Below, piece after piece: positions 36,881-64,000 of a stretch of DNA of 64,000 nucleotides. Position numbers and translations under genes: made by a program. Every line of letters begins with the position of its first letter. Positions within the stretch are counted from its first letter, which is position 1. Below the pieces are notes generated by a model. It ran no database searches. It was not told where the DNA came from and saw nothing but the letters and a program-made list of their open reading frames with translations. The stretch comes from Thermoplasmata archaeon (lineage in GTDB: Archaea; Thermoplasmatota; Thermoplasmata; Halarchaeoplasmatales; Halarchaeoplasmataceae): the NCBI GenBank assembly GCA_003554965.1, contig PWHR01000014.1, positions 29,667-93,666 on the forward strand. The letters are read 5' to 3'.

Positions 36881-37026
36881 GTCGGGGTAGCTCAGCCTGG
36901 TGGAGCGCTAGACTCATAGGGAATCTCAGCTCCACGAGAACAGGGATTTAAACTAAATTCCTGCGATGTCAGGAACAAAGTTCCTGGGACATCTAGAGGT
37001 CGCGGGTTCAAACCCCGTCCCCGACA
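36881..37026 (+). tRNA. tRNA-Met (CAU anticodon) with 72-nt intron at 36919-36990 (position 37/38)
   Basis: Acceptor GTCGGGG/CCCCGAC + A; D-stem GCTC/GAGC; anticodon stem CTAGA/TCTAG with CAT at 36915-36917; T-arm GCGGG-TTCAAAC-CCCGT. BHB: CTCA/TGGG central 4-bp helix, 3-nt bulges TA^G and AC^A, GGAA/TTCC intron helix. Confidence 0.95.
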
Positions 37027-37128
37027 TACTATTTTTCTAAAGCGGGATCAAGAGTCAATCTTTGATTTTATAGGACTCCGTCATTCTCTTTTTCGAAAAT
37101 CATCAATTCCCTACGGTTTGCGAGTTGT
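37013..37128. repeat. tRNA-3'-end plus noncoding repeat, copy 1
   Basis: 21-bp identity CCCCGTCCCCGACATACTATT then 81-bp perfect match (37048-37128) to 51675-51755. Confidence 0.97.
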
Positions 37129-37214
37129 TAAAAATCCCATTTGATTCCCGACTTATTTCATAGTTCATGTGTAAATAGTTATGAAGCCCAAATGATCTTG
37201 AAAAATCGAAAATA

Positions 37215-40200
37215 TTATGTTCGATCATCCAATTCGTTATCACACTTCTCGATCCAAAGTTCCATACCTATATCTTCAAACATCTTTCGAGATTTCTTGA
37301 TCTGGTTTCTCCATTTTTTCTTTTCCCCCATATTTTTCCAAAGAAGGGCATATTCAAAAAACAATTTTGCTAATTCTCTTTTCATTTTAATATCCTCTAA
37401 GATCTCCTTCCCTTTCTCAAATTCTTCTTCAGCTTCATCCCATTCTTTTTTCTTTCTATAAACCATACCTAAAGTCTTATGACTTATACCTTCCTCCGCT
37501 TTTGCTTCAATATTTTTAGAGATTTCTAAAGCTTTTCTACCTTTTTCTAGCGCTTTTTCAAACTCATGTTCTCGAATATGGATTTCTGCTAAACCAGTTA
37601 ATAAAGTAGGCACTAATTGTTCGTACTTCGTATCTTTGCAAAGTTTCAAACCCTCTCGATAGGTTTCCCTCGCTTCATCTAGTTCTCCTTTTAGTAAGTA
37701 TGTTTTCGCTAGGTTGGCTAACGAAGTCGTTATACCTACAAAATAGTTGATATTTTTACTGATATCTAAACTTTTTTTCAGCTTCTTAAGAGCGGAGTCT
37801 AATTCATTCCTTTCATAATAATAATCGCCCATATTTATTAAAACTATGGCAACACCTTGTTGGTAACCTATCTCCTCCCACAGTTCAAGACTTTTACGAT
37901 AGTATTCTATAGCTTTTTCAAATTCCCCTTTTCTAGAATATATTGTACCTATGTTATTTAAGCAAGAAGAAATATCTCTTTTATCTCCTATTTTTTCCCT
38001 CAATTCTAAACTTTGTTCATACCTTTCCAGAGCTTTATCGAAATCTCCCTTTTTGAAATAAACAGTTCCTAGAGTATTCAAAGAAGAAGACTTCCCATGA
38101 AGATCATTGATTTTATCAAACTCTTCTAGAGCAATATCTAAATGATTGATAGATTTTTCATACTCTCCAAAGTACAAATAGACAGTACCAAGACCTTGAT
38201 TTATATTGGCATAGGCTTCATACTCATCAAAATTTTCGCAGATATCAAGTGAGGTCAAAAAGTCTTTTTCGGCCTCGTCGTATCTTCCCTGGCGTTTTAT
38301 TATATAGCCCCTCCTCGATAACAATTTACAGGTTTCTATACTCTCTTCTTCCCCTTCTGCCAACCCTTTTTCTATAGCTTCTAATGCTTTATCGAATTCA
38401 CCCTTTCTCGCATATACACTTGCCATTTTTCTATAAATTCTTTGTTTGTATTTTGGTTTTATTTCATCTTTAGGTATTTTATCATAATGTTCTAGACTAA
38501 CATCGTAATCCCCAATAATCTTGTTTACATCTCCATGCCTTTCCAATATTTTCCATCTCTTCTTTTCATTCAAATCTCCTTTTTCAATAAGATCCAAGGC
38601 TTCGTCATACATCTCTAAGGCATCTTCGTGGGCATAAAGAGATTCGGCTTTCTCTCCTGATTTTCGGTAAAACTCGAATCCTTTATCAAATTCATCTGCT
38701 TTTTTATAGTGAAGTCCAATACTAGAGTAATATTTTTCGATGTTTTCCTCGAACTCTTTTTCCATGGATTTACCAACTTGGTTATGAAGAGTTTTTCTTA
38801 ATGATTTAGGAATATTTTCATAAACGTATTTACGAATTAATCCGTGTGAAAAGTATAACCTGTCTTCTTCAGGATTTTCTTCTAATATACCTGTTTCAGT
38901 TAGTATATCTACCGACTCTAAAAGATCGAAGGGATCAATATTAGTCACAGATTGTAACAGGGAAAATCGTATTTCTTCTCCTATTACACTACCTGTTTGA
39001 AGAATTCGGAGGTCTTCTCGATTTAATTTTCTGATCCTCTTTTCTATAATATCGCCAACAACTTCCGGCAGTTCAATATCTCCTTTCTTAGTGGGAAATT
39101 TATTATTTTGTGGATCGATTATATCTTCTTCCAACATCTCTTTGATTATTTCTTTAGAAAAAAGAGGATTTCCTTCAGAAATATCATGTATCAACTGAAC
39201 GAATTCATCTGGAATATTGATTTCACCTGTAAGTCCTTGGGCAATCTCTTTGGTATCTTTCCATTTTAGAGGACCAAGTTTTAATTCATCGAAGAGATCT
39301 TCTCTCCTCATCCTTTGAAGTACTTCATCTAAGAAATCATTATCTGAAACGTTTTGTAGACGAAGAGCGCTAATAAATAATATTGGTACATCCTTCAGAT
39401 TATCGGACAGATAATGGAAAAGCATCAAAGTAGCTTTGTCGGTCCATTGTAGATCATCTATAAATATGATCATCGATCTCTTTTTAGCCAATTCACGTAT
39501 ATTTTTGACTGTTTGAGAAAAGATCAAATCACGTCTACGTTTTTGTACTTCCTCATCTTTTAGTGGAATTCTTTCCCCTTCTTCATCTCCTCTTTCTATT
39601 AACTTCAATGGAGCTACTTTATTTTCATCTTTTTCCGAATAAACCTCAAAGGCCTCCTTAAAGGGAAGGTAAGGTTCAGAAGTATCATAGTGTCCTTTTC
39701 CCATCAAAAATTCGAAACCAGCTGAGATCGCTTTATGCTTGAATTCATTCACTAACTGTGTCTTTCCTATGCCCGCATCGCCTTCAATCAAAATGGCTAA
39801 TGAATTGTCGTTCTTTACATGATCCAATTTTTCCAAAAGAAAACTCATCTCATCTTTTCGACCCACAAAGATATCTTCTTTCTTTTGTTTTCCCTCTCGT
39901 GTTAACTTAATAACCCTCTCATCGTTTATGTTATTTAGAGCCACTAGCAATGGGTTTTGAGAATCGATATGTGTATCGATTTTCTTGAGTTCAATTTCGT
40001 ATTCTGAAGAGCCCTTTTTAAGTATAACCTTTTCGTTTTCTAATTCTTTTCGGATTTTTCTTGCCCTCTCAAAACCTTTTGGTGTGAGTGAATAAACTTT
40101 ACGTCTTCTTTTGAGCCCTACTACATGGCTAACATCTTCTTTTATCAATTCATCTTGAGTCATCTCTCTGATTATTTGACTGACTCTCGCTCTAGACAGA

Positions 40201-40331
40201 TTGACAGCTTTAGCTATTCCTTTCTGGCAGATTTCATATGACACTCTTCCGTGATCTTTAGTTTCTCGTGAATTCTCTTTGGTTTCTAGATGAATTAAGA
40301 TTCTTTGTCTCCCATTCGCCAAGTTTGTCAT
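37215..40331 (-). CDS. wHTH - STAND/AAA ATPase - TPR transcriptional regulator, cassette copy 1
   Basis: N-terminal winged helix (GIAKAVNLSRARVSQIIREMTQDELIKEDVSHVVGLKRRRKVYSLT), Walker A ILIEGDAGIGKTQLV, Walker B MIIFIDDLQWTD, more than 10 TPR units. Confidence 0.92.
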   Translation of the reverse strand: MTNLANGRQRILIHLETKENSRETKDHGRVSYEICQKGIAKAVNLSRARVSQIIREMTQDELIKEDVSHVVGLKRRRKVYSLTPKGFERARKIRKELENEKVILKKGSSEYEIELKKIDTHIDSQNPLLVALNNINDERVIKLTREGKQKKEDIFVGRKDEMSFLLEKLDHVKNDNSLAILIEGDAGIGKTQLVNEFKHKAISAGFEFLMGKGHYDTSEPYLPFKEAFEVYSEKDENKVAPLKLIERGDEEGERIPLKDEEVQKRRRDLIFSQTVKNIRELAKKRSMIIFIDDLQWTDKATLMLFHYLSDNLKDVPILFISALRLQNVSDNDFLDEVLQRMRREDLFDELKLGPLKWKDTKEIAQGLTGEINIPDEFVQLIHDISEGNPLFSKEIIKEMLEEDIIDPQNNKFPTKKGDIELPEVVGDIIEKRIRKLNREDLRILQTGSVIGEEIRFSLLQSVTNIDPFDLLESVDILTETGILEENPEEDRLYFSHGLIRKYVYENIPKSLRKTLHNQVGKSMEKEFEENIEKYYSSIGLHYKKADEFDKGFEFYRKSGEKAESLYAHEDALEMYDEALDLIEKGDLNEKKRWKILERHGDVNKIIGDYDVSLEHYDKIPKDEIKPKYKQRIYRKMASVYARKGEFDKALEAIEKGLAEGEEESIETCKLLSRRGYIIKRQGRYDEAEKDFLTSLDICENFDEYEAYANINQGLGTVYLYFGEYEKSINHLDIALEEFDKINDLHGKSSSLNTLGTVYFKKGDFDKALERYEQSLELREKIGDKRDISSCLNNIGTIYSRKGEFEKAIEYYRKSLELWEEIGYQQGVAIVLINMGDYYYERNELDSALKKLKKSLDISKNINYFVGITTSLANLAKTYLLKGELDEARETYREGLKLCKDTKYEQLVPTLLTGLAEIHIREHEFEKALEKGRKALEISKNIEAKAEEGISHKTLGMVYRKKKEWDEAEEEFEKGKEILEDIKMKRELAKLFFEYALLWKNMGEKKKWRNQIKKSRKMFEDIGMELWIEKCDNELDDRT
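37237..37327. repeat. 91-bp perfect repeat covering the 3' end of the regulator gene, copy 1
   Basis: Identical to 51776-51866 (TTATCACACTTCTCGATCC...TTTTCTTTTCCC). Confidence 0.95.
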
Positions 40332-40341
40332 CTGTAGATGG

Positions 40342-40375
40342 TTAGTGGTTATGGGTATTTAGTGGTTATGGGTAT
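40342..40375. repeat. 17-bp perfect tandem repeat (TTAGTGGTTATGGGTAT x2) in divergent promoter region
   Basis: Direct reading of 40342-40358 and 40359-40375; followed by TATAAAAGG. Confidence 0.9.
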
Positions 40376-40432
40376 AAAAGGATTTCTTAAAATTCAATAT
40401 TAACATTTTGACTCAAAAACAAGGGAGATAAC

Positions 40433-40444
40433 CTTACATGTAAG
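40433..40444. promoter_or_regulatory. Palindrome CTTACATGTAAG upstream of a TATA-like TTTATAA (40452-40458)
   Basis: Perfect 12-bp palindrome about 60 nt upstream of the ATG at 40499; matching arrangement in copy 2. Confidence 0.6.
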
Positions 40445-40498
40445 AGTGAGATTTATAATTCCTAATAGTTGGTAGTAATACCGAAAGGTGAAAAAGAT

Positions 40499-43400
40499 AT
40501 GGAAAGAAAAATCCAAACTTGGATTGCGGCTTTATTGATTGCCGTTGTCCTTATAGCCGGAACCGCCCTGACAGGGACGGCTTCTCTGGCACAAGGAACA
40601 GAAAGAGGAGAACAGGAAACAGAAGGCGAACTAGTGTTAGTTGATGAGAGTGATGTCGACGAAGTGGACAGAGAGGGCAGGGTAATCCATGACTATGGAG
40701 AGTCTATATTGATGGAAGTTGAAAAGGAAAATCAGATGGAACTGGAAAAGGAGTTTGATGTAACTTCTTTGGACTACAGAACAAATCTAAGAGTGAGAGG
40801 TCATGAATTCGACATACAAGAGGGCTTTCCGGACTTTTCCAGGGAGCTAGAAATTGATCCTGATACACTGAATAGTGAAGACTTGCAGGACCAACTGACC
40901 ATGAGTGAGGATGACCCCGATAGCGAAACACTGACGCGCGAGACATATATAGTACAGATGATAGGTCCTAGAGCTCCCGAATGGAGAATGGAATTAGAAG
41001 AGATGGAAGTTGACATCTTAGGGTCGATACATCCCTATGGTTACGAAGTACGGATGTCTCCAGATAGAGCTGAAAGGGTTAGAGATCTAGACTACGTAGA
41101 ATCTTTAGAGCTGTTCCAACCCGGATTCAAGATAGCTCCGGAGCTGACGATGGACCTTGAGGATGTTGAGAAAATTGCCGGCGAGAATGAAGAGCGACAG
41201 TTAAGCGGTTTGGAAGATTCGGTAGAAACTGTGGACTCGCCATCTGATGGTCTACCAGAAACCTCTGGAACCATTGCAGAAGGTGAAGATTCGATAGAGA
41301 CCGAGGGAGATATTCAAGGGAAGATAGAGGAAGCACAGCCGAACTATCCTGACGAGTTGGTGGTAGAGATACTAGTATTGGAAGGATTGCATGGAGAAAC
41401 TCAACAAGAGATAGAATCTAATGTGGAGGAGATACAGGACATCGCAGATATCCCCGAAGGTAATAGAGTGAGAGCAGTTATAGAAGACGAGGTAGATCTG
41501 ATAAATCTCGCTCAGATAAGCGACGTCTACCACATCACACCTAATTTAGAACCACAATTGCATGAGATGTCTTCTCAGGTAGTAGCAGGCGGTTCGTGGC
41601 ACTATGCTCCGCAATGGGAATGGGAAGATCCAGATCCGCCCGATAGAGAACCTGAAACACCTGTGGATCCATACAGGCACGACGATCCGGAATGGGCTCC
41701 TGCAGGTCCTTTAACTGCGCAGGAAGGCTACACTGGAGAAGACCGAATAATAAGTGTGGCTGATACAGGAATAGGCGATGGTACCCATGGAGATGCAGGT
41801 CACGATGATTTCACTGGAAGGATAGTTAGCGGCTATGACTGGGAATCAGAATCTACCGAAGAAGGAGAATTCTGGGACGCAGACGGCCATGGAACGGGTG
41901 TTGCGGGGATGGCAGCAAGTGATTCGTATCACGGAACGGGCTATGATATTGGACATGAAGAACTAGAATGGACAGGTTTAGCAGATGAAGACTATTGGAG
42001 TGAAGATTATTACGCCTCGATGGGAGTTGCACCGGAGGCTGATATTCATACATCCAGGATAGCAGGTGACGATGGTGGTTTGATAATACCCGATGATCTC
42101 CACGAGGTACCTGAACAGGCCATACAGCAGGAACCGGAGTTGTTCGGACAGACTCATTCGTGGGGCACGATGGGAGCGTACGGGGGATACGTAGAGCAAA
42201 CTAGTCAGATAGATGCCGCAGTTAGAGACGCTAACAGAGATACTGAGGAAGAAGAACCATTATACATAACGTTCTCAGCGGGTAACGATGGTGCTCGAGG
42301 AGAGGGTACAGTAGGAGAACCAGGAGGAACGGCCAAAAACGTAGTTTCTGTTGGTGGAACGATGAATTACGAACCTAGTGATGAGTTCATGGATCCGAAT
42401 CCCAGTCCAGATATGTGGGATGTAGGATCATGGGGATGGACAGACGATAACAGGATAAAGCCTGATGTAGCGGGTCCAGCGAGTAACGTATTGACGACCA
42501 TGTGGTATGATGATCCGGATACAGATCCGAACTATGTAGGTTACGCAGGAACTTCATTTTCGTCACCAACGGCTCAGGGCGCAGGTGCTACTATAGCTGA
42601 CTGGTACGAAGAACATCCACTGGTAGAAGGTAGTCCGAGTCCCGCCATGACGAGAGCGCTTCTGACGAACACCGCTACACAGACTTACGAAGACCTTGAT
42701 GGAGACGGAACGATAGATTATAGACCTAACAAACAAATGGGATGGGGTAGGATGGACCTGACTCCGTTAGTAGACCACGACTTACCGGAAGGCGGTCCGT
42801 TCATGATGTATGATGGAGTCTCTTGTATGACCGAAGAGATGGAAGAGACCTATCTGACGACTGGAGATGAAGAGGATTACACTGTAGCACCGATGGATGA
42901 AGATGAGCCACTGAAGATGACCTTGGCTTGGGATGACAAAGAGGCTCAAGCGGGAGCTGATCCAACGCTCCAGAACGACTTGAGATTGGAAGTCGAGAGT
43001 CCAGAAGGGGAGATCTACAGAGGCAACGCTTTTGCAGAAGATGAAGGTGCAGAGAGCACTTCGGGTTTCAGCTATTCCGATACGGAGGTTATGTCTGATT
43101 TCGACATGACTGGAGACGGTTACGATGATGTGAACAACCTGTTGAGTGTATACGTCGAGGACCCTGAACCTGGTGCATATGAAGTAAGGGTTAAAGGTCA
43201 TGATATACCGGAATATGCCAATCCGAATATAGATGAACCGAATCAGGATTTCGCATTGGCAGTCCAGAATTCGTTCGTAACTGAAGATGGTATGTTCTCT
43301 ATGGACAGAGGAAGATATGCTAAGGAAGATACAGTAGATTTCAGTGTCATCGATGAAGATATGACGGATCAAGACACAGTTGACATCGAGGTAAGATCTT

Positions 43401-51055: not shown

Positions 51056-51135
51056 ACGAAGAGACTACAGTTATACAAGCAAAAACCAAAACCCTTTCCC
51101 CTTATATTATTAAATAAAATTAAGAGGTGAAGATA

Positions 51136-51591
51136 ATGACGATCAATGATATTGAAAAAATAATGTTAATAGATAGAGACATGGATTTCTTAGAACAGGC
51201 GAAAAAAACTATTGAATCTGAAAATAAGGATGTCGAAGTTTTAACAACAACCTCTATAGAAAGATCAATAGTTGAGCTAGAAGAACACAAGTTACAAGTC
51301 ATAATATCTAGCTACAATATCGGAGAAAAAGATGGTCTAGAGTTATTGAGAAAGCTTAGGAAAGAAAAATGGTCAAATTTACCATTCATTCTTTTGATAG
51401 ACGGAGAAAACGATACAGTGATGTTAAAAGCTTTACAACTTGGAGCAAATAGGGTTTTTCTAAAAAGAGAGAATGAAGTTTTGTCTTGTCAAATTCTGAG
51501 CGAAATTGTAAGACAAGAACTGTTGAATCATAAGATGAGAAAAGAACTTGAACACCTTAGAAAAAGAAGCCCCAACATTATAATGTTTTGA
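51136..51591 (+). CDS. Stand-alone receiver-like protein lacking phospho-acceptor Asp
   Basis: IEKIMLIDRDMDFLEQAKKTI...LQVIISSYNIGEKDGLELLRKLR...GANRVFLKRENE; CheY-like fold with Ser at the Asp position. GTG 51127 possible alternative start. Confidence 0.85.
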   Translation: MTINDIEKIMLIDRDMDFLEQAKKTIESENKDVEVLTTTSIERSIVELEEHKLQVIISSYNIGEKDGLELLRKLRKEKWSNLPFILLIDGENDTVMLKALQLGANRVFLKRENEVLSCQILSEIVRQELLNHKMRKELEHLRKRSPNIIMF

Positions 51592-51642
51592 TTAAGAAGT
51601 AAAAAATTCGAACATTTTTTTACGGGCAAATAGGCGTTGATT

Positions 51643-51755
51643 CCCCGTCCCCGACATACTATTCTAAATTGGATTCAAGAGTCAATCTTTGATTTTATAG
51701 GACTCCGTCATTCTCTTTTTCGAAAATCATCAATTCCCTACGGTTTGCGAGTTGT
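51643..51755. repeat. tRNA-3'-end remnant plus noncoding repeat, copy 2
   Basis: CCCCGTCCCCGACATACTATT and an 81-bp identical block (51675-51755) without the rest of a tRNA upstream. Confidence 0.97.
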
Positions 51756-54700
51756 GAGAAATCCCTTTTGATTCCTTATCACACTTCTCGATCCAAAGTT
51801 CCATACCTATATCTTCAAACATCTTTCGAGATTTCTTGATCTGGTTTCTCCATTTTTTCTTTTCCCTCATATCTTTCCAAAGCAAGGCAAATTGAAATAT
51901 CAATTTAGCTAGGTCTATCTTGTGACCGATCTCTTTTAATATTTTTCTACCTTTTTTGAATTCCATCTTGGATTTATTCCACTCCTTAAAATGTCTATAT
52001 ACTATACCGAGAGTACGATGACAGATTCCTTTTTCCGCCTTTGCGCCGATCTCCTCCGATATTTCTAACGCTTCTTCTGCCATTTTTTGAGCCTCTTTTT
52101 TATCCTCCTTGACCAGAATTTCAGACAAGTCCAACAATCCGTGGATCATGGCATTTTTATTTTCTATCTCTCTACAGAGCTCTATAGACTTTTCATAATA
52201 TGATTTCGATTTTTCGATCTGATTTATATATTTATAATAACTGCCCATATTCAAATATCCCAATGATAAACCGTACTTAAAATTTTTATTTTCACTCAAT
52301 TTAAGACTATTTTTATAATGTTTTTTTGCCTTTTCTAATTCACCTTTAATGAGATAGTAGTTCCCAAGATTGTTTAATGATATATTTTTGCCTCTCTCAT
52401 CGTCTATCTCCTTCACAATCTCATAACTTTTTTCATAATGGCAGTAGGCTTTTTCTAGCCTCCCCTTTTTAATATATAAATTACCTATATTGTTTAAAGC
52501 TGTAGACATATGACTCTTATCACCTATTTTTTTGAATATCTTCAAACTCTTTTCAAAGTTTTCTAAAGCCTCATTTACTTGTCCAATGTTCAGATAAACG
52601 TTCGCTATGCTGACTAAAGAAGAAGCTTGCCCTTGGATATTTTCTGTTTCCTCTCTGATCGCTAGACCTTTTTCAAGATATTTTAATGATAGATGATATC
52701 TGTCCTTATGATAATTGATGATACCTAAGGCATGATAAATATCAGCAAGTTCTTTCTTATTTTTACGATCCTTCCCGATGATCTTTAGAGCTTCTTTTAT
52801 GTTTTTTTCAGCCGATTCGTAAAGACCTTTCTTCATACAAGTCCAGCCTTTTAAATATTGGATACGACAGGTTTCTATATTAACTTCCTCATCCTCCTCC
52901 AACCCCATATTGAGATAATCTAGAGATTTATCAAAAAACCCTTTTTTATTATAAATCATTGCGATTTTCCTGTAAATCTTTGAGATATATCTATCATCCA
53001 ATTTTTCATCAAGCATTTTCTCGTAAAAATTTAACGCCTCATCGTATCTACCTATAGTTTTGTGTATGTCTGCTAGATTCTCTAAGGTTATTGCTCTCTC
53101 TTCAGGATCAATCTGGCATTCCTTAGATAGATCTATCGCTCTCTTATATATCTCTATTGCATCTTCGTGGGCATATATCTCTTTAGCTTTTTCACCTGCT
53201 TTTAGATAGTAATTGAAAGCTTCAGAGTATTCTTCAGCTTTCTCGTAATGATAACCTATATTAAAATAATAATCATCTAAGTTTTCACTATATATGTTTT
53301 CGATATTTTCAGCAACGGTTTTGTGCATATTTTTTCTTAGCGATTCAGGGATGTTTTCGTAAACTGTCATATGAACTAGACCATGGTCAAAGTGAAAGAC
53401 ATCTTCATTGGGTTCGGATTGCCATAAACCGATTCCTGTAAGAATATCGGTGCTTTCAAGAAGGTCAAAACCGTCAATGCCGGTTATTGAATGTAGTAAC
53501 GAAAACTGGATATCTTCTCCTATAACGCTTCCAATTCTAAGAACTTTTAGATCGTCTTTATTCAATCTTTTTATCCTTCTCTCGATGATCTCGTTTACTA
53601 CACTAGGGATATTGATCTCATCTTTTTCCGTTGGATATCTTTCTTTATCTGGATCAATTATCTCTTCTACCAACAGCTCTTTGACCAACTCTTCGCAAAA
53701 AAGGGGATTACCCTCTGATGTTTCATGTATCAGAGATACAAAGTCATCCGGGATATTTTCCTTTTCAATAATCATTCTTATGATATTTTTCGTAGCTTTA
53801 AATTCAAAGGGTTTTACTTTCAATTCCTCAACAAGATTTTTTCTCCTCATCCTCTGTATTACGTCTTCAACGAAACCATCGCTCCTGATATCTTCGGGTC
53901 TATAAGCCCCTAACAATAATACTGGTGCGTCTTCTAAATTTTCAGTTAAGTAGTAAAATAGCATTAGTGATGCCCGATCTATCCATTGAAAATCATCTAT
54001 GAATATAACCATCGCTTGTTTTTCTGCCATAGATCTTATATTTTCTAAAGTAGCAGAAAAAATCAAATCTCGATTGTTTTCTCTTTTTCCGGCGGACATT
54101 TTACGTTTTCCTTTTTCCTTGATAGCCTTATCGGAAAACTCTAAGGGCATATGTTCTTCGTCATCTAAATAGGGTTTGAAAGCTTCTTCAAAGGAAAGAT
54201 ATGGTCTAGAAAAGTTATGGTATCCTTTACCCACTAAAAAGTTTAGATCTTCAGATTGAACGATTCTTTTAAATTCATAGACTAATTTAGTTTTTCCAAC
54301 TCCAGCATTTCCTTTAATCAATATCGTTGAAGATCTGTCTTTTTTTACCTCTTCTAAAGACTCATTAAGGTATCGTTTCTCTTTCTCCCTGCCCACGAAA
54401 TCCTCATCTTCACTTATCTTTTTTGAGGTTAGATTTATCGTATTCGAGTCATCAATTTTGTTTAGAGCCGATATTAGCGGGTTTTGGCTTTCAATGTGTG
54501 AATTTATATTTTGAAGTTTTATAGTTTCTTGTGATGATCCGGTATTAACTGTTATCTTTTTATCTACAATCTCCTCTCGAAGCTCTTCCGCTTTTTTGTG
54601 TCCTTTAGAAGTCAGAGAGTAAACTTTTCTACGCCTTTTTAAACCTTTGACTCGACTTATATTCTCCTCAACCAAATTTTTATCGATCAAGTCCTTTATT

Positions 54701-54855
54701 ATCTCGCTTATCCGGCTTCTAGAAAGATCAACAGAATCTGCAATTCCGTTCTGACAGAGATCATATGGAACTTCTTTCATATCTTTTAAATTGTCTAGAG
54801 ATCTTTCTCCTTCTAAATGTAGTAAAACTCTATATCTTCCTTTAGCAGCTTGCAT
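51730..54855 (-). CDS. wHTH - STAND/AAA ATPase - TPR transcriptional regulator, cassette copy 2
   Basis: Full-length paralog of 37215-40331: GIADSVDLSRSRISEIIKDLIDKNLVEENISRVKGLKRRRKVYSLT, Walker A ILIKGNAGVGKTKLV, Walker B MVIFIDDFQWID, TPRs. Confidence 0.92.
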   Translation of the reverse strand: MQAAKGRYRVLLHLEGERSLDNLKDMKEVPYDLCQNGIADSVDLSRSRISEIIKDLIDKNLVEENISRVKGLKRRRKVYSLTSKGHKKAEELREEIVDKKITVNTGSSQETIKLQNINSHIESQNPLISALNKIDDSNTINLTSKKISEDEDFVGREKEKRYLNESLEEVKKDRSSTILIKGNAGVGKTKLVYEFKRIVQSEDLNFLVGKGYHNFSRPYLSFEEAFKPYLDDEEHMPLEFSDKAIKEKGKRKMSAGKRENNRDLIFSATLENIRSMAEKQAMVIFIDDFQWIDRASLMLFYYLTENLEDAPVLLLGAYRPEDIRSDGFVEDVIQRMRRKNLVEELKVKPFEFKATKNIIRMIIEKENIPDDFVSLIHETSEGNPLFCEELVKELLVEEIIDPDKERYPTEKDEINIPSVVNEIIERRIKRLNKDDLKVLRIGSVIGEDIQFSLLHSITGIDGFDLLESTDILTGIGLWQSEPNEDVFHFDHGLVHMTVYENIPESLRKNMHKTVAENIENIYSENLDDYYFNIGYHYEKAEEYSEAFNYYLKAGEKAKEIYAHEDAIEIYKRAIDLSKECQIDPEERAITLENLADIHKTIGRYDEALNFYEKMLDEKLDDRYISKIYRKIAMIYNKKGFFDKSLDYLNMGLEEDEEVNIETCRIQYLKGWTCMKKGLYESAEKNIKEALKIIGKDRKNKKELADIYHALGIINYHKDRYHLSLKYLEKGLAIREETENIQGQASSLVSIANVYLNIGQVNEALENFEKSLKIFKKIGDKSHMSTALNNIGNLYIKKGRLEKAYCHYEKSYEIVKEIDDERGKNISLNNLGNYYLIKGELEKAKKHYKNSLKLSENKNFKYGLSLGYLNMGSYYKYINQIEKSKSYYEKSIELCREIENKNAMIHGLLDLSEILVKEDKKEAQKMAEEALEISEEIGAKAEKGICHRTLGIVYRHFKEWNKSKMEFKKGRKILKEIGHKIDLAKLIFQFALLWKDMREKKKWRNQIKKSRKMFEDIGMELWIEKCDKESKGISHNSQTVGN
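51776..51866. repeat. 91-bp perfect repeat covering the 3' end of the regulator gene, copy 2
   Basis: Identical to 37237-37327. Confidence 0.95.
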
Positions 54856-54904
54856 TGCAACTGATAGGGGCGATTTGTATTATTAAAAACTTCCTATCGC
54901 ATTC

Positions 54905-54914
54905 CCACATGTGG
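54905..54914. promoter_or_regulatory. Palindrome CCACATGTGG upstream of TATA-like CTTAAATA (54923-54930)
   Basis: Perfect palindrome about 64 nt upstream of ATG 54974, sharing ACATGT core and spacing with copy 1. Confidence 0.55.
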
Positions 54915-54973
54915 TAGTGAAACTTAAATAACTACACCTACAAGTCCAACTCGCACAAATGCGAGGCATATAA

Positions 54974-57900
54974 ATGTTAGAAAATAAACCAAGCAGAACG
55001 TTTTCAGTGTTAGTGATTGTAGTTGTTCTAGTCACCGGTACAGTTTTTCCGGTGATGATCGGAGCTATGGCCGAAACGGAATCATTCGAAAGTCATTCCT
55101 CAGACGAAACGATAGTACTGGTGAAGGAAGATGATGAAGATAAATTGGAGTATATAAATGAGTATGGTGAGATCATAGACCATTACGGCGAAAATATATT
55201 ATTGGAAATCCCTCGACAAGATATTAGTGAATTAAGGAGAGAATACGAGGTCGATGGTCTAGAGTCAAGCAATCAAATCAACATTAAGGGCCACACCTTC
55301 GATACGACAGAAGGTTTTTGTGATCTAGATACAGACTTGAAGATAGAGGGATACGAATCTGAAAATGAAGGGATATATATAGTAGACATGATAGGACCGG
55401 TAAACCCAGAATGGAAAGAACAGTTAGAAGATTTAGGTGTAGATGTATTGAACTATCAACCGAATTATGCCTATGAAGTCGTTATGGATCCTGATATAGC
55501 AGAGATGGTAGAGAATTTTGACTTTGTAGATTGGGTAGGACCCTATCAACCGGAATTTAAAATCCACCCTGCGGTGGATGATGCTCTTGAAAAGGAGATG
55601 CCTTTTACGGTAAGATTGAGACCGGGTTTTGAAGACACTACTTTAAATCAGATAGATACAAAACTTGACGTTGTCAGTCATGAAGATCTTAAGGAAGACG
55701 GACTTCGGTTAACTGTGAACATTGATTCGTTGAATAAAATCGAAAGTCTAGCGATGGATAACGATGTCTACTACATTTCACCATATGTAGAACCGGAACT
55801 TCATGGAGAGATGGACATACAACAGTTAGGCGGAGGGATGTGGTTCATGGACGACGAGTACGAAACAAGAACTGATCTAGATCCAGAACCTCCTGAGGGA
55901 GATCCTCAAGAACCTTACAGGAAACATGGAGACTACGGAGCTTACATAAATCAGCTTGGACATTATGGTGATGATATCACGGTTGCTGTGGCCGACTCAG
56001 GCGTAGGTGATGGTTCTACGGGTGATGCAGGTGTAGAAGACTTTACAGGGAGGATAATAGATGGATACGGTTTTGGTGAAGAAAACGATTGGCAGGACGG
56101 ATTGGGTCACGGCACCCAAGTCACTGGATTTATTGCAGGAGATACTTATCATGGAACAGGAGAAACATGGGATGATTTTGAAGATGGAGACATGGAATAT
56201 TACATGGGCCAAGGTCTAGCTTCTGAATCTGAAATTTTTGCTACAAAAATATTCGATGATGGAGGAAATTTCTTACCGACTGAGTATTATCCTATAATTG
56301 AAGAACCGGCACAAAGATCTGACGCATATATACATGGTAATTCCTGGGGTGCAGGGACCATGGGAGAATACAGTGATTCTGATGAGATATTTGATCAGGG
56401 AGTGAGAGATGCAGATAGAGATACGGATGAAAATGAAGAAATGGTCGTGACTGTTTCTGCGGGAAATGATGGTGGACGAGGTGGTTACGAACAGGAGACA
56501 GGCAGTCCTGGAAATGCTAAGAATGTGATAACGGTAGGGGGAAACCAACCATATAATCCTGGTTTAGGATACGAAAATCCGCATAATATGGCAGACTTCA
56601 GCTCAAGAGGATGGACCGAGGACAACCGTATCAAACCTGATATAGTAGCTCCTTCCGAAAGCGTTCTCTCACAAAATACTCCGTTGGATGAGGGCGACTA
56701 TGTTGCTGTAGATGGGACTTCTTTCGGTAATCCTCTTGCAGCAGGAGCCGCGAGTATAGTTGTGGAATGGTATGAAGACAATTATGATGAAAAGCCTAGT
56801 CCCGCCATGGTGAGAGCTATATTGATAAATACAGCAAACGAGTTGGATCCTGAGATTGGAGATACAAGAGGTCATGTCCCGAATGAAGATGAAGGATGGG
56901 GTGTGCCCGATCTTTCTAAGCTCGAGCATCCAGAAAAGGAGCATATGGATTTCTTATTTGAAGATCAGGAATCACTATTGACAACCGGTGAAGTCAACGA
57001 ATATGAAGTTAGCTATCCAGACGATGAAGAACCATTGAAAATCACACTTGCATGGACTGATGAACATGCAGTGGAGGGCGATAGTGCTGGTGGATCACCG
57101 ACTTTGAAGAACAATCTTGATTTAGAGGTGGAATCACCCGACGGGAAGATATATAGAGGTAATGCCTTCAATGAAACTGGTGGAGCAGAGAGTGACAACG
57201 GCTTTTCATATGCTGATACCGAAGTGATGGAAGTTTTTGATCACAGTGAGGACGGATGGGACGACGCTAATAATGTCCAAAATGTTTTCATACCTCCCGA
57301 AGAAATAGAAACTGGTAGTTATTCAATTAGAGTTAAGGGTACGAATATTCCAGCCGACTCCAACAATGATGGAGAAGCAAATCAGGATTATGCATTGAGT
57401 GTTTACAACTCACCTTCAAAGCACATACCAGAAAAAGACGGAGAGATAATCTTTGATGAAAACGAATATGCAGGCGATGATTACGTAAATATAACTTTGA
57501 TCGATGCTATTTTACAGGATGAGGAAACTCACGATATAGATGTCTCTAGTCTAGATTCTGAAGGGAGTGAAATAGAAAACGTCACAGTTACGTTATATGA
57601 GGATGAAGAGAACCCTGGTACGTTCAAAGGATCACTGCAATTGACCGAGGATGAAGAAGGAGAAGGATTATTCGTACAGCATGACGGGGAGATAAAGGGC
57701 TGGTACTGGGATGAAGACCCCGGTCATCCAGACGATTTGGAAGAAATAGATGAAAATAGACTTGGAACTAATTCTAAGATCACTGAGACGAGAGATGTTG
57801 GGGTTTCTGAAATAAATCAACCTTCTGAACGCGTAAATGCTGAAGAATCTCATCCTGTAGAGGTTACCGTGGAAAATTATGGCACCTTCGATGAACCTAG

Positions 57901-60900
57901 TGTTCCAGTAGAAACGACGATAGCTACAGAAAAACAATTGTTGTATGAGGATTTCGATGGAGAGATACCCGATGACTGGGAGATCGACTCTACTGCTTCT
58001 GAAACTTGGGAGTGGGATGAAACTTTTGGCGGCACACCGATGGCTAGTGTTGACGAGGCACCAAGTGAAAATCAGGATGAGTGGTTGATCACACCAACAT
58101 TTGATGCGAGTGAAGCGGAAGAAACACATCTTTATTTGGATCAATCAATATCTGTTACTACATGGGAATCTTCAGCTGAAGTATCGATAAGTACGGACGG
58201 TGGAGATAGTTGGGAAGAAATAGATTCCTATACAAGCGATGCAGGTGAGAAGGAATATGATATTTCCGAGTGGGCAGATGGCGAAGAAGAAGTTCAACTA
58301 GCGTTCATATTTGAGAGTAATACACACGATGGCTGGGTCACTGACGGATATGACCTCTTCGAGGTTGAAGTCGATTACATAGGAGAGGTTTATTCAGATG
58401 AGATGACAGTAGATATAGATTCAGACGATTACGAGACAGTGACTTTCGATGAATGGAAACCTTCAACTGAAGCGGTTTATTACATGAATTCCACCACCTC
58501 ACTTGAAGAGGACGATGACCCAACTAATGATTACGAAACACAGACTATTACTGTTGAAAATATAAATGATGTAGGTGTAACTGAAATTATAGATCCACCA
58601 GAGATAGTAAGTAGTGATGAAACTTATCCTGTTGAAGTAGAAGTTGAAAACTTTGGAACCTTTGATGAAACTGAAATACCTGTAGAAGTTTTGATAGAGG
58701 GAAACTCTGTTGATGTCACCGGTGAAGAAGAAATATCCTTATTCTATGAGGATTTCGATGAAGAGATACCCGACGATTGGGAGATTAACGATACCGCTTC
58801 TACAACCTGGGAGTGGGACGAAACATCCGATGATATACCGATGGCTAGTATCGACGAAGAATCTAACGAAAACCAGGATGAGTGGTTGATAACACCAAAA
58901 TTTGATGCGAGTGAAGCACAGGAAACAATTCTCTATCTGGATCAGTCTGTTATGATCGACAACGGATGGAACACAGTGTCTTCAGCTGAAGTATCGATAA
59001 GTACGGACGGTGGAGATAGTTGGGAAGAAATAGATACCTATTCAAGCGATGCAGGTGAGAAGGAATATGATATTTCCGAGTGGGCAGATGGCGAAGAAGA
59101 AGTTCAACTAGCGTTCATATTTGATAGTGACATACACAGTGAGTGGGTGAGCGATGGTTATGATCTCTTCGAGGTCGAGGTTTATTACTTGGGAGATGAC
59201 GACTATTCAGACGAAACTACCATAGATCTTTACGCAGGTGAGAATAAGAGCGTATCTTTTGATGATTGGACTCCTTCTGATGACAGTGAATTTTTAATGA
59301 ACGCTACCACTTCTCTAGATGATGACGATGATCCGACCAATGACTACACCACTCAAACGATGGAACTTTCAGATGTACTTGATGTTGGCGTTACAGAGAT
59401 ACATTCACCTGAGGGATCATATCTCTTCGACACGATGATAGACGTAGAAGCGGAAGTAGAGAACTTTGGAGAGCTTGATATAGATGATGTTCCAGTCGAA
59501 GCTACTATCGAAGAGATGGTAAAATTATTGGATGAAGATTTCGAAGATGAGATTCCGGATGAATGGACGATCGATAATACGACGGATGGTTCTGCAACTT
59601 GGCATCATGATGAAAGCTGGGATGGGACCAATATGGCCAAGATTCAGGACTGTGCGGACACATCACAGGAAGAGTGGCTTATCTCACCGGAGTTCGATGC
59701 TTCAGAAGCTTTCGATACGTTCCTCGAGATAAATCATGAATTCTATAATGGAATTTGGGGTGACAGTTTTGGTGAATTGAAGATAAGTTCAGACGCTGGT
59801 GAGAATTGGGAAACAATTGACAAAATGGATGATTCAGATTCTGAGACTGAGGAACTTGTATATGACATATCTGACCGTGTAGAAGGTGAAGAAGAAATAC
59901 AAATAGCTTTAGTATTCAACGCTGAAGATCATGGATCGACTTATAGTCACGATTACTGGGACATCTACGACATTTCTGTTACTTATAAGGAAGATGCAGA
60001 ATATATCGACGATATCACAACAGATATCGATTCAGAGAGCAAAATCAATGTGACCTTCGAGGATTGGGAACCTGATAACGTGGGTGAATACAAAGTAAAT
60101 GTGACGACTTTATTAGAACATGATGCTGATCCAAGCAACGACTATGAAACTCAATTTGTAGAGATATTAGAAAGGGAGCATGACATCGGTGTTGATGATA
60201 TATTGACTCCTAAAAGTTTGACATGGAACGAGACACAAACAGTAACATCTAATATCACCAATTATGGGGATTATCATGAAACCGATATACCGATCGAAGC
60301 CAATGCTCAGCGAATCTTAGGAATTAGAGAAGATTTCTCAGGAGATTTTCCACCAAAGGGATGGGAAACAGATGATTGGATTCAATCCTATTCAAATGAG
60401 GCTGGAGGGGAAGCTCCGGAGGCTGAACTCTATTGGGAAAACATAGAAGATGATTATTCGTATCTTAAGAGCGAACCAGTGGACACTAACGATACTGAAG
60501 AATTGACCCTGGAGTTCAAATCACATATTGATCACTACGAGGAGTATTTCAGTGCAAGAGTGTTGGTCAGATCAGACCTTGATGAAGATTGGAGTGATGT
60601 TTCTCCATGGAACAATCCAGTCTTTGGAGATATAGAGGCAGATGAATATGAGGTCAACATAACAGAATATATCGGAGAAGAAACTCAGCTGAAGTTTGAG
60701 TTTGAAGGTGATGCATGGAACATAAATCACTGGTATATCGATGACATTAGAGCAGACTACATAGAAGATGGCTATGAATACGAGGATGAGATAGAGATAG
60801 ACTTAGATATGGGTGAAACAAAAACTACCGAATTTGAAGATTGGAATCCGTCAACACCAGGAGATTACGTTTTCAATGTGACTGCTCAACATCCTGATGA

Positions 60901-63900
60901 ATCTCATCCTGAGAATTCTTCTTTCGAGAAGGACATATACGTTGAAGAAGTAATATACGATTTAGAAGCAACCTCTATAAATAGGCCGATTGAACCGGTC
61001 TTCAACTATGAAGAAGAAGTCATAGGTACAGTAACCAACGTCGGAAATAGAGATATTACTGAGGAAACCGTAGTTAACATGGATATCAAACCTGTGCATC
61101 GAAACATGCCGATAAACGAGGAGTTCTCTGACGGTTTACCGGATGGTTGGACAATAGAGGATAGAGACGGAAATGACAACACATGGGAATGGGATGAGGA
61201 AGATGAATTGATGAAAGTCACCTCTGCAAACGAACACGAAAACGACGTATTATGGACTGAAGTTGCTGACTGCTCTATAGAAGATATCGGAGAAGACCAT
61301 AGACTAGAACTAGAATTCCTCTCAACTTATCAAGGTACAAATGATAGAGACCTACTAATTTCTACTGATGGGGGAGAAACTTACAGAAGGATCGGAAGAG
61401 ATATAGGAGAAGGCGAGATGACTCATGATATTACAGATATAGCTCTAGACGAAGAAGAAGTTATGATCGGTTGGGAATTCTATTCAGAGGAACCTGAAGA
61501 GGAAGATTATTGGAAGATAGACGATGTAAAGATATCACACGAATACACTACTGAGGAGTATTTCTCAAGTGCTACGTTCGACGATTTGAATGTGAGTGAG
61601 GAAAAGCAGTTATCCTTTGAGAATTGGGATCCTGAGTATTATCCTAGTGAATATATCCTCACAATGACAACCGACCACGAGGAAGATGAGAATTTAGAAA
61701 ACGTTGAAATAGTCGAAAGATTAAAGGTCGAAGAGCATGCTCCACCAGAACCTCCAATAGATCCTAATCCTGAAGACGGCGAAGAAGATGTCACCCATTC
61801 ACCTGTTTTAGATGTATTGGTAACAGATCCAAACGACCATCATATGGATGTAACATTCTATCTTTTTGACGAAGATGGAGATGAGATAGCTAATGAAACT
61901 GATAAGAATGTTGACTCAGGGGAAAGAGCGGAAGTTCAGTTCCTGATGATCGATGTTGATTCCACTTTTACATGGCATGTAGAGGCTGATGATGGTATTG
62001 AATCTACTAGCTCCCAAACCTGGGAATTCCACACATATGAACCTGAGGGGATGTGGAAAACCACTACTGCTGACATAAATACTGAGTCACCGGGTCAGGT
62101 AGAAAATATTGAAGTCGATTGGGACAACGATATCTGGAGCGTAACAGGTAATGAAGTGAGCTGGGACGCTTCCCCGGATGATGGTGCAGGGAATGATGAT
62201 ACCGAATACTATTCCATATATAGAGCTGAAGACGAAGAAGGTCCGTGGGACGAGACCACAAAGATTGGTACAGTCGAAGCTGATGGATCTGAAAATTATA
62301 GCTATTTTGATGAAGGAATGGCAGATGATGGTGAACAATGGAGCTACGTGGTGAGAGCAGTGGATAGAGTCGGAAATATGGATATGAATGAAGAGTCTGT
62401 ATCTGAGATGCCTCTTCCAGATGTAACCGATCCAAATCCGATCGATGGTGAAGAGGTTGAGGAACTCGAGCAGACATTGTCTGTTGATATAACTACTCCT
62501 AACCACATAGAGGAGATGATGGAAGTTAGATTCTATGACGGAAGAACTCACGAATTGATAGCTAGAGAAGACGGGGTAGATGAAAATCCTGTTGAAGTAA
62601 CATGGGAACTAGAAGAAAGTGACATGGGCGAGGACCATTACTGGTTCGTTGTGGGAGGCTACGAGGATTACGATGTAAGTAAAATGAGTCCAGAGAGTCT
62701 CTTCGAAAAAGAAATAGGAACTACCTCAGATGAGGATATACAAGTTGCAGTTATCGATGAGGAAAATTACCATAACGGTGAAATTGAGAATAAACTAGAA
62801 GACTATCTTCCTAGTGAATACACAGTCGACACTCTAGAGTCCTACGAAGTAATCGAAAATATGGATGAATATGATGAATTTGTTATCCAGCGCTTTGGAA
62901 GTGATTCTTTAGCTGAGGATTTCTTAGATTCTCTCGAAGATGACCAAGGAGTAGTTTATCTTGACTCGCATCAAGGAGCAACGGCTGAGGGTTATTCCGA
63001 CGGGATCTACAGACTTCACAATGTGCGTAACGATCCAGAATTTAGAAACTCTGAAGGAGGGGATACCGATCCCCCGACTACTATGAATATATTGGAGGAC
63101 CATCCAATTTTTGATAAGGTAGGTGAAGCAGGAGAAGATATAACTCTGTTCGATGGAATGAACAATTGGGGATCATGGTTCGATGATTACAGTGGAGATT
63201 TGCTTGCCGAAGTTGATTATGGTGGCGGATTTAGTGGACCAGGGGTAGGAGTTAGTCAAGACGATTCAGAGATACTATTACCAGCGAAAGGAATAGACGT
63301 ATTTGGTGAAGCCGACGATGAGGGCTGGACAGAGGAAGCTAACCAACTATTGGCGAATTCTGTTGAATTCGTTGCAGGTCAGGCAGAATACGAACCCGAG
63401 GGATGGCATTTCCATCTTCTAAACACTGTTGATCCAGTCGCTGATGCAGGAGAAGACATCGAAGCCGATCAGGGCGATATGATAACTTTAGACGGCACCG
63501 ATTCATATAATCCACCTTCGGAAAATGGAGGTATAGATGCGTATGAGTGGACCATAGAGGATCCGACAGGAGATGTAACAGAATTGCAGGGTGCGTTAGT
63601 AGAGTATACATTAGAATACGCCTTAGAGTACGAAGTGACTTTGACAGTATACGATGAGGAAGGAAATCAAGACGAAGATACAATCCAGATTTACGCAGTA
63701 GATACCGAAGATCCTATTGCCGATGCAGGAGAGGATATCGAAGCATATCAAGGTGAGAGCGTCACATTAGATGGGAGCGGATCGACTGACAACGTAGGGA
63801 TCGACGAATACGAGTGGACAATCGATAAACCAACGGGTGAAGAAATCACCCAATATGGTGAGCAAGTGGATTATACTTTAGAATATGCTTTAGAGTACGA

Positions 63901-64000
63901 AGTGACTTTGACAGTATACGATGAGGAAGGAAATCAAGACGAAGATACAATCCAGATTTACGCAGTAGATACCGAAGATCCTATTGCCGATGCAGGAGAG
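54974..64000 (+). CDS. Second giant secreted multidomain subtilase (S8), cassette copy 2; truncated by window end
   Basis: Open frame from ATG 54974 to 64000 (3,009 codons). Signal-like N-terminus; Asp VAVADSGVGDG, His GHGTQVTGF, Ser GTSFGNPLAAG; CARDB-like, choice-of-anchor/MAM-like and PKD repeats. Not in the supplied ORF list because it has no stop in the window. Confidence 0.93.
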   Translation, partial: MLENKPSRTFSVLVIVVVLVTGTVFPVMIGAMAETESFESHSSDETIVLVKEDDEDKLEYINEYGEIIDHYGENILLEIPRQDISELRREYEVDGLESSNQINIKGHTFDTTEGFCDLDTDLKIEGYESENEGIYIVDMIGPVNPEWKEQLEDLGVDVLNYQPNYAYEVVMDPDIAEMVENFDFVDWVGPYQPEFKIHPAVDDALEKEMPFTVRLRPGFEDTTLNQIDTKLDVVSHEDLKEDGLRLTVNIDSLNKIESLAMDNDVYYISPYVEPELHGEMDIQQLGGGMWFMDDEYETRTDLDPEPPEGDPQEPYRKHGDYGAYINQLGHYGDDITVAVADSGVGDGSTGDAGVEDFTGRIIDGYGFGEENDWQDGLGHGTQVTGFIAGDTYHGTGETWDDFEDGDMEYYMGQGLASESEIFATKIFDDGGNFLPTEYYPIIEEPAQRSDAYIHGNSWGAGTMGEYSDSDEIFDQGVRDADRDTDENEEMVVTVSAGNDGGRGGYEQETGSPGNAKNVITVGGNQPYNPGLGYENPHNMADFSSRGWTEDNRIKPDIVAPSESVLSQNTPLDEGDYVAVDGTSFGNPLAAGAASIVVEWYEDNYDEKPSPAMVRAILINTANELDPEIGDTRGHVPNEDEGWGVPDLSKLEHPEKEHMDFLFEDQESLLTTGEVNEYEVSYPDDEEPLKITLAWTDEHAVEGDSAGGSPTLKNNLDLEVESPDGKIYRGNAFNETGGAESDNGFSYADTEVMEVFDHSEDGWDDANNVQNVFIPPEEIETGSYSIRVKGTNIPADSNNDGEANQDYALSVYNSPSKHIPEKDGEIIFDENEYAGDDYVNITLIDAILQDEETHDIDVSSLDSEGSEIENVTVTLYEDEENPGTFKGSLQLTEDEEGEGLFVQHDGEIKGWYWDEDPGHPDDLEEIDENRLGTNSKITETRDVGVSEINQPSERVNAEESHPVEVTVENYGTFDEPSVPVETTIATEKQLLYEDFDGEIPDDWEIDSTASETWEWDETFGGTPMASVDEAPSENQDEWLITPTFDASEAEETHLYLDQSISVTTWESSAEVSISTDGGDSWEEIDSYTSDAGEKEYDISEWADGEEEVQLAFIFESNTHDGWVTDGYDLFEVEVDYIGEVYSDEMTVDIDSDDYETVTFDEWKPSTEAVYYMNSTTSLEEDDDPTNDYETQTITVENINDVGVTEIIDPPEIVSSDETYPVEVEVENFGTFDETEIPVEVLIEGNSVDVTGEEEISLFYEDFDEEIPDDWEINDTASTTWEWDETSDDIPMASIDEESNENQDEWLITPKFDASEAQETILYLDQSVMIDNGWNTVSSAEVSISTDGGDSWEEIDTYSSDAGEKEYDISEWADGEEEVQLAFIFDSDIHSEWVSDGYDLFEVEVYYLGDDDYSDETTIDLYAGENKSVSFDDWTPSDDSEFLMNATTSLDDDDDPTNDYTTQTMELSDVLDVGVTEIHSPEGSYLFDTMIDVEAEVENFGELDIDDVPVEATIEEMVKLLDEDFEDEIPDEWTIDNTTDGSATWHHDESWDGTNMAKIQDCADTSQEEWLISPEFDASEAFDTFLEINHEFYNGIWGDSFGELKISSDAGENWETIDKMDDSDSETEELVYDISDRVEGEEEIQIALVFNAEDHGSTYSHDYWDIYDISVTYKEDAEYIDDITTDIDSESKINVTFEDWEPDNVGEYKVNVTTLLEHDADPSNDYETQFVEILEREHDIGVDDILTPKSLTWNETQTVTSNITNYGDYHETDIPIEANAQRILGIREDFSGDFPPKGWETDDWIQSYSNEAGGEAPEAELYWENIEDDYSYLKSEPVDTNDTEELTLEFKSHIDHYEEYFSARVLVRSDLDEDWSDVSPWNNPVFGDIEADEYEVNITEYIGEETQLKFEFEGDAWNINHWYIDDIRADYIEDGYEYEDEIEIDLDMGETKTTEFEDWNPSTPGDYVFNVTAQHPDESHPENSSFEKDIYVEEVIYDLEATSINRPIEPVFNYEEEVIGTVTNVGNRDITEETVVNMDIKPVHRNMPINEEFSDGLPDGWTIEDRDGNDNTWEWDEEDELMKVTSANEHENDVLWTEVADCSIEDIGEDHRLELEFLSTYQGTNDRDLLISTDGGETYRRIGRDIGEGEMTHDITDIALDEEEVMIGWEFYSEEPEEEDYWKIDDVKISHEYTTEEYFSSATFDDLNVSEEKQLSFENWDPEYYPSEYILTMTTDHEEDENLENVEIVERLKVEEHAPPEPPIDPNPEDGEEDVTHSPVLDVLVTDPNDHHMDVTFYLFDEDGDEIANETDKNVDSGERAEVQFLMIDVDSTFTWHVEADDGIESTSSQTWEFHTYEPEGMWKTTTADINTESPGQVENIEVDWDNDIWSVTGNEVSWDASPDDGAGNDDTEYYSIYRAEDEEGPWDETTKIGTVEADGSENYSYFDEGMADDGEQWSYVVRAVDRVGNMDMNEESVSEMPLPDVTDPNPIDGEEVEELEQTLSVDITTPNHIEEMMEVRFYDGRTHELIAREDGVDENPVEVTWELEESDMGEDHYWFVVGGYEDYDVSKMSPESLFEKEIGTTSDEDIQVAVIDEENYHNGEIENKLEDYLPSEYTVDTLESYEVIENMDEYDEFVIQRFGSDSLAEDFLDSLEDDQGVVYLDSHQGATAEGYSDGIYRLHNVRNDPEFRNSEGGDTDPPTTMNILEDHPIFDKVGEAGEDITLFDGMNNWGSWFDDYSGDLLAEVDYGGGFSGPGVGVSQDDSEILLPAKGIDVFGEADDEGWTEEANQLLANSVEFVAGQAEYEPEGWHFHLLNTVDPVADAGEDIEADQGDMITLDGTDSYNPPSENGGIDAYEWTIEDPTGDVTELQGALVEYTLEYALEYEVTLTVYDEEGNQDEDTIQIYAVDTEDPIADAGEDIEAYQGESVTLDGSGSTDNVGIDEYEWTIDKPTGEEITQYGEQVDYTLEYALEYEVTLTVYDEEGNQDEDTIQIYAVDTEDPIADAGE
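58171..59125 (+). repeat. 810-bp-offset (270-aa) repeat of jelly-roll + CARDB-like module
   Basis: 58171-58315 nearly identical to 58981-59125 (TTCAGCTGAAGTATCGATAAGTACGGACGGTGGAGATAGTTGGGAAGAAATAGA...). Confidence 0.92.
63623..64000 (+). repeat. PKD-domain repeat, 267-bp period, continuing past window end
   Basis: 111-bp perfect identity 63623-63733 vs 63890-64000. Confidence 0.93.

Follow-up and report, generated by a model that had tools for sequence, protein, structure and literature searches.

Behind a tRNA-Met gene of a soda-lake Thermoplasmata archaeon stand two units in series, each pairing a large regulator gene with a divergent gene for a giant subtilase. This arrangement raises two questions: does each regulator control the protease beside it, and how did two such pairs come to lie behind one tRNA gene? 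We addressed them in the stretch of 64,000 nucleotides that carries both units (hereafter the window; G000:C97:29667-93666), the end of which is also the end of its contig, C97. The study is based on one assembled genome (2.33 Mb) and on incomplete genomes of relatives, namely MAGs of Thermoplasmata recovered from sediment of soda lakes and from haloalkaline samples, including Ca. Saliniplasma.

Two units in series

Each unit runs from a tRNA-Met 3' end through a noncoding block to a minus-strand regulator gene (REG) and a divergent, plus-strand giant subtilase gene (PRO); unit 1 additionally ends with a response-regulator gene (Table 1). The original prediction for this DNA had described two units of the same order and orientation at an offset of exactly 14,630 bp, and this was borne out: the 21-bp sequence CCCCGTCCCCGACATACTATT occurs at 37013 and again at 51643, where shuffles expect 0. 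The conserved noncoding block, predicted at about 80 bp, was recovered as an exact repeat of 81 bp (starts 37048 and 51675). A second exact repeat, of 91 bp, lies within the 3' ends of the REG genes (starts 37237 and 51776). The 88 bp between these two repeats are absent from unit 2, the repeat spacing falling from 14,627 to 14,539 bp, and because unit 2 is without them the C-terminus of REG2 extends into the noncoding block. Both regulators and both divergent subtilases were also present as predicted, paralogous yet diverged: REG1 and REG2 are 45% identical, and PRO1 and PRO2 41% (first 950 aa). The contig stops at 64000 inside a PKD tandem repeat, and its final 21 bp recur at 63712. The original prediction had noted neither this contig end nor the response-regulator gene of unit 1.

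Table 1. Features of the two units, in window coordinates
Feature	Position	Strand	Evidence or remark
tRNA-Met gene with intron, anticodon CAT	36881..37026	+	Rfam RF00005, 52.5 bits; downstream of S3Ae-family ribosomal protein gene
tRNA 3'-end repeat copy 1 (attL-like)	37013..37033	+	Exact 21-bp repeat; 3' end of complete tRNA-Met
Conserved noncoding block copy 1	37034..37148		81 bp exact to copy 2
REG1, predicted winged HTH, STAND NTPase and TPR, 1038 aa	37215..40331	-	Pfam AAA_16, TPR
Candidate REG1 operator CTTACATGTAAG, 12-bp perfect palindrome	40433..40444	+	Promoter alignment, genome pattern search
TATA-like box of PRO1	40452..40459	+	7 nt past operator; aligned across 12 promoters
PRO1, giant S8 subtilase, 3528 aa	40469..51055	+	Peptidase_S8, E 9e-25; likely start ATG 40499
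Single-domain response regulator, unit 1	51127..51591	+	Response_reg, 1.3e-12
tRNA 3'-end repeat copy 2 (internal junction)	51643..51663	+	Exact 21-bp repeat
Conserved noncoding block copy 2	51664..51775		88 bp deleted versus unit 1
REG2, winged HTH-STAND-TPR, 1041 aa	51730..54855	-	Final ~315 bp REG1-like
Candidate REG2 operator CCCACATGTGGT	54904..54915	+	Promoter alignment, genome pattern search
TATA-like box of PRO2	54923..54930	+	7 nt past operator
PRO2, giant S8 subtilase, at least 3009 aa, cut by contig end	54974..64000	+	Peptidase_S8, 5e-35; PKD

Regulators and giant proteases

The regulators are STAND NTPases with a TPR sensor, carrying Pfam AAA_16 and TPR_12 domains and GKT and DD motifs that are invariant in nine paralogs. 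An AlphaFold model of REG1 residues 1-150 (pLDDT 87.7) is a winged helix with a recognition helix at residues 47-59 and a wing. When this model was searched with Foldseek, the best PDB matches were to MepR, a MarR-type protein, with a best E of 2.9e-3 and all matches above E 0.001. Among the Pfam matches listed the MarR family was absent, and TrmB and PadR fell below the cut-off for REG2.

PRO1 is laid out as a signal peptide, an S8 domain, beta-propeller/Ig modules, a coiled coil and a C-terminal membrane anchor. Membership of both proteases in the S8 family is given by PF00082 together with the GTSF Ser, GHGT His and SAGND Asn motifs, and the catalytic Asp motif appears in the translations as VADTG or VADSG. 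Because of the signal peptide and, where the end is known (PRO1), the membrane anchor, the proteases should act on the cell surface. Literature searches on giant subtilases of the Thermoplasmatota and on peptidases of Saliniplasma returned nothing. The response regulator beside the pair on contig C82 is 52% identical to that of unit 1; a protease followed by a response-regulator gene was also observed in two other pairs (L063 2090-2623; L050 16274-16750).

A dispersed family of pairs

Core regulators were defined as those at least 43% identical to REG1, REG1 included; the regulators C36, on a 4.8-kb contig, and C82b, 33% identical, were left out. By this definition the source genome holds five further adjacent REG/PRO pairs, on contigs C37, C15, C82, C6 and C11, and all core regulators with a readable neighbourhood (7/7) adjoin a giant subtilase, six divergently and the one on C11 tail-to-tail. 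Divergent pairs also occur in other genera, three in G008 and one in G009, as well as on L187 and L190. Since the source genome has 18 S8 matches in all, many of its subtilases are unpaired. Regulators below about 39% identity mostly have other neighbours, C82b being a partial exception in that it lies beside a secreted protein of 1220 aa, after which comes a subtilase. Family regulators are also carried by three GenBank contigs, L187, L188 and L190, which are assigned to MAGs of Syntrophomonadaceae, Nealsonbacteria and Nitriliruptoria and are probably misbinned. The C36 contig ends, beside its family regulator, in a run of A (L056 4790-4834), a possible assembly artefact.

The prediction of a tandem-duplicated cassette belonging to the tRNA locus was not supported. 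The other pairs of the source genome and its relatives are unlinked and lack the tRNA repeat, an outcome that the original prediction had itself named as refuting the general claim, and the two regulators at the locus itself are less than half identical. No tRNA was found in 131 kb around most of the other pairs of the source genome, and no tRNA end beside L187, a relative of REG1; on these grounds the idea that the REG/PRO pair is a general mobile element was rejected. It was also rejected because viral contigs and phages gave no more than a single weak match each, and the plasmid matches were to distant STAND/TPR proteins at about 23% identity.

Private palindromes at the protease promoters

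PRO promoters were aligned by eye around the TATA box, with two rows shifted by one base. In the 12 promoters so aligned, a palindrome lies 7-8 nt upstream of the TATA box, its centre fixed about 13 bp before TATA and its core usually ACATGT. Scored around a single common centre, the palindromes of 11 promoters show complementary bases at 52 of 66 pairs, where 5000 shuffles reached at most 32. For the outer three pairs, whose sequence varies, the count is 24 of 33, whereas shuffling the partners gives a mean of 10.3 (p about 5e-5). Both tests are somewhat optimistic because of the alignment by eye and the two shifted rows. Judged by these counts, the outer-base changes between paralogs are compensatory, as would be expected if a symmetric dimer recognises the site.

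The promoter pattern ACATGTNNNAGTGARRYTTA has four perfect matches in the 2.33 Mb, all at REG/PRO promoters, and the control has 0. No perfect match occurs in 15 family genomes, and the single match in G008, with one mismatch, falls at that genome's own pair; at two mismatches the pattern is at chance level in the relatives, and such matches were left out. C82b, inspected after the alignment had been built, has TACACATGTGTG 7 nt before a TATA-like box. The palindrome fits less well at the operators of C15, C82a, L190, L188 and G009, and the C11 promoter has no clear palindrome site.

At the locus, then, a palindrome stands immediately upstream of BRE/TATA, beside an oppositely encoded neighbour. 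That each regulator governs its divergently transcribed protease, as originally proposed, is probable: each PRO TATA box has a private palindrome in front of it, the sites of different paralogs differ by compensatory changes, and the pattern is nearly unique in the genome.

Recognition helix and operator bases

Across 8 pairs, and at positions picked after looking, the class of regulator residue 52 goes with operator base N5 (p 0.0036) and residue 48 goes with N4 (p 0.036), while the cross-comparisons show no such association. Both residues lie inside the predicted recognition helix. An N5 of C goes with Glu or Asp at residue 52, an N5 of G with Lys and an N5 of T with Tyr; the residue is Gln with operator CTTACATGTAAG, which is shared by unit 1 and G008_96, whose regulators are 44% identical. 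We regard this apparent correspondence as a lead to test.

Three tRNA ends and the origin of the locus

The tRNA-Met gene was detected with Rfam, ARAGORN in bacterial mode finding no tRNA, and its adjacency to the S3Ae gene is conserved across the class. The 21-bp repeat comprises 14 nt of the tRNA and 7 nt downstream. A search of the whole genome for further copies, which had been suggested as a sign of more units, yielded exactly one, on contig C2 (7886-7906, minus strand). A third unit had been thought possible beyond 64000; no third regulator was seen, C97 ending at that position and the gap to C2 being unread.

The three copies define three junctions. At J1 the end joins the tRNA body to the noncoding block and REG1; at J2 it joins the response regulator and a linker to the noncoding block and REG2; at J3, on C2, it joins a truncated response regulator (RR') and the linker to HepT, MNT, KptA and HMG-CoA reductase genes, the 120 bp upstream of RR' being unrelated. 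The copies are placed as an attL, an internal junction and an attR would be and look like attachment-site scars, and the layout is the pattern that two tandem insertions behind a tRNA would leave. Archaeal att sites can be this short, can lie at tRNA 3' ends and can occur in tandem, and the elements can lose their integrase (PMC8371274). No integrase was found on the sequenced parts of C97 or C2, PF00589 matches being present only on C24 and C12, and no mobile-element genes were found in the sequenced units.

The placing of C2 draws on gene order in two relatives, G001 and G002. There tRNA-Met is present without the units, an XPD helicase gene lies within about 1.5 kb after it, and KptA faces a TPR gene; in the source genome XPD faces that same TPR gene, on C19 (L170 6363-10297). 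A chromosomal inversion with one end near tRNA-Met plausibly explains this XPD/TPR-gene junction and the changed far neighbour of tRNA-Met. It predicts that tRNA-Met and its inserts face KptA, as C2 would provide. We infer that C2 lies downstream of the second protease and that the third tRNA end is the far end of the array. The end of C2 shows no overlap with C97, and no contig bridging the two was found among the loci examined.

The site behind tRNA-Met varies within the genus: G002 has a heliorhodopsin gene directly behind the tRNA (L124 4303-5064), and G003 has, at the matching place, a 251-aa ORF beside XPD (L171 5209-5964). In other genera it is occupied by two divergent genes, one resembling the small subunit of DNA polymerase (PF04042) and the other encoding a giant CARDB surface protein (L128 in G010, L173 in G007, L126, L132 in G009, and L135), the pair in G009 being inverted relative to that in G010.

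Similarity between the units is limited to their ends, about 370 bp on the left (about 92%) and about 360 bp on the right (about 78%). The final ~315 bp of REG2 are REG1-like (75% to L187) and the remainder is not. REG1 is 72% identical to the regulator of L187, 53-54% to two G008 regulators and 49-50% to that of G009, and PRO1 is 63-64% identical to the C82 and L187 proteases. A recent tandem duplication was rejected on the REG and PRO identities. Because the left and right ends differ in divergence and the 3' end of REG2 is REG1-like, a later exchange of ends is likely, and we read the locus as a probable case of serial insertion behind tRNA-Met with end exchange. A test for strict co-divergence of regulators and proteases found none (Mantel r 0.14, p 0.20), so either partners have been swapped between pairs or the signal has reached saturation.

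Alternative explanations

Other histories would also place two similar units side by side. A simple local duplication, in which an ancestral pair by tRNA-Met was doubled by unequal crossing-over and then diverged while gene conversion kept its ends alike, would account for the shared order and orientation and for the similarity at both ends of the units. However, REG1 is nearer to the G008, G009 and L187 regulators than to REG2, and PRO1 nearer to the C82 and L187 proteases than to PRO2, identities suggesting that the units are not sisters; moreover, a plain duplication yields one tRNA end per internal junction and does not predict a third end on C2 before backbone genes, and we consider it quite improbable. 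Cassette exchange would instead have unit 2 begin as a full copy of unit 1, the interior of which then gave way to another pair from the genome when the conserved REG 3' end and the response-regulator end underwent homologous recombination. The REG1-like last part of REG2 beside its dissimilar remainder agrees with this, as does the resemblance of both unit 2 ends to unit 1. Mosaic proteases agree with it as well: L187 combines a PRO1-like catalytic part with a PRO2-like middle, and modules and partners have therefore been exchanged. Yet the left and right ends differ in divergence, so that one duplication event cannot explain both; we think this history somewhat unlikely, and it can be combined with serial insertion. 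An assembly artefact joining unrelated loci through the 81- or 91-bp repeat might be suspected from the exact repeats of 91, 81 and 21 bp between the two junctions and from a contig that ends in a repeat. It is very unlikely, given that the left ends show differences at a number of positions besides the 88-bp deletion, that the response-regulator end and linker also precede the tRNA end on C2, and that the left flanking gene order matches that of the relatives.

The palindromes, too, admit another interpretation, as repressor sites or as a core-promoter feature, with the regulator repressing the protease or being unrelated to it. Sequence cannot tell the direction of regulation, and the REG1 fold matches MarR-type proteins, many of which are repressors. 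However, the palindrome lies upstream of BRE/TATA and not over it, the typical position of an archaeal activator site (PMC4333418), and a core-promoter feature would be common, whereas this pattern was found only at REG/PRO promoters. We consider this interpretation unlikely.

Discussion

We favour, with a probability of about 0.6, a joint model of dispersed regulator/protease pairs with private operators, probably activating, two of which were serially inserted behind tRNA-Met and had their ends made alike later. By analogy with STAND-TPR proteins, REG would be held inactive until its TPR sensor is triggered. It would then dimerise or oligomerise, probably standing as a dimer at the site, bind the private palindrome that directly precedes the BRE/TATA of its divergent protease gene and recruit basal factors to that promoter, probably activating it; the protease would then work at the cell surface. 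We propose that the paralogs escape cross-talk through joint change of residues in the recognition helix and outer bases of the operator. The two pairs would have arrived by successive insertions at the 3' end of the tRNA, which left three tRNA-end copies, and subsequent recombination would have made the unit ends alike.

Parts of this scheme resemble known systems. The tetrabrachion-associated protease of Staphylothermus is reportedly a subtilisin-like protease on a coiled-coil surface stalk, the two being separate proteins; the likeness is that of a subtilisin-like protease on a large coiled-coil surface protein, but PRO1 unites catalytic domain, modules, coiled coil and anchor in a single chain. 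With MalT-type STAND ATPases such as Pyrococcus PH0952 (PDB 6mfv, one of the PDB entries that REG1 matches in sequence, by way of the TPR part), REG shares a Walker-motif STAND NTPase followed by TPR repeats, and differs in having an N-terminal winged HTH and a divergent giant subtilase as partner. Csa3a of Sulfolobus, a MarR-like activator of CRISPR adaptation genes, has an imperfect palindrome immediately upstream of BRE/TATA (PMC4333418). It too is an archaeal winged-helix regulator that adjoins its targets and is encoded opposite them, but it is small and without STAND/TPR, whereas REG comes as a full set of paralogs whose operators differ. Archaeal integrated elements targeting tRNA genes share with our locus an intact tRNA, short 3'-end repeats at the junctions, tandem insertion and, sometimes, loss of the integrase (PMC8371274); unlike them, the sequenced units hold no integrase or mobile gene, and most REG/PRO pairs lie away from tRNA genes.

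How regulators and operators separate after duplication is an old question, simulated for example for one duplicated repressor-operator pair (PMC1464816). The source genome together with its relatives supplies about a dozen pairs of paralogous origin in which operators differ at defined positions and recognition helices at matching residues, so that a base-residue code becomes directly testable. Tentatively, and at somewhat less than even odds, we suggest an expanding natural set of orthogonal regulator-operator pairs, in which each STAND-TPR regulator reads its own palindrome through approximately residues 48 and 52 (REG1 numbering) and units could thus move and recombine, including behind a tRNA gene, without cross-talk. 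Judged by sequence, the pairs resemble a naturally occurring collection of matched regulator-switch units, and they suggest a possible way for uncultured archaea of salt lakes to put their many giant surface proteases to use separately.
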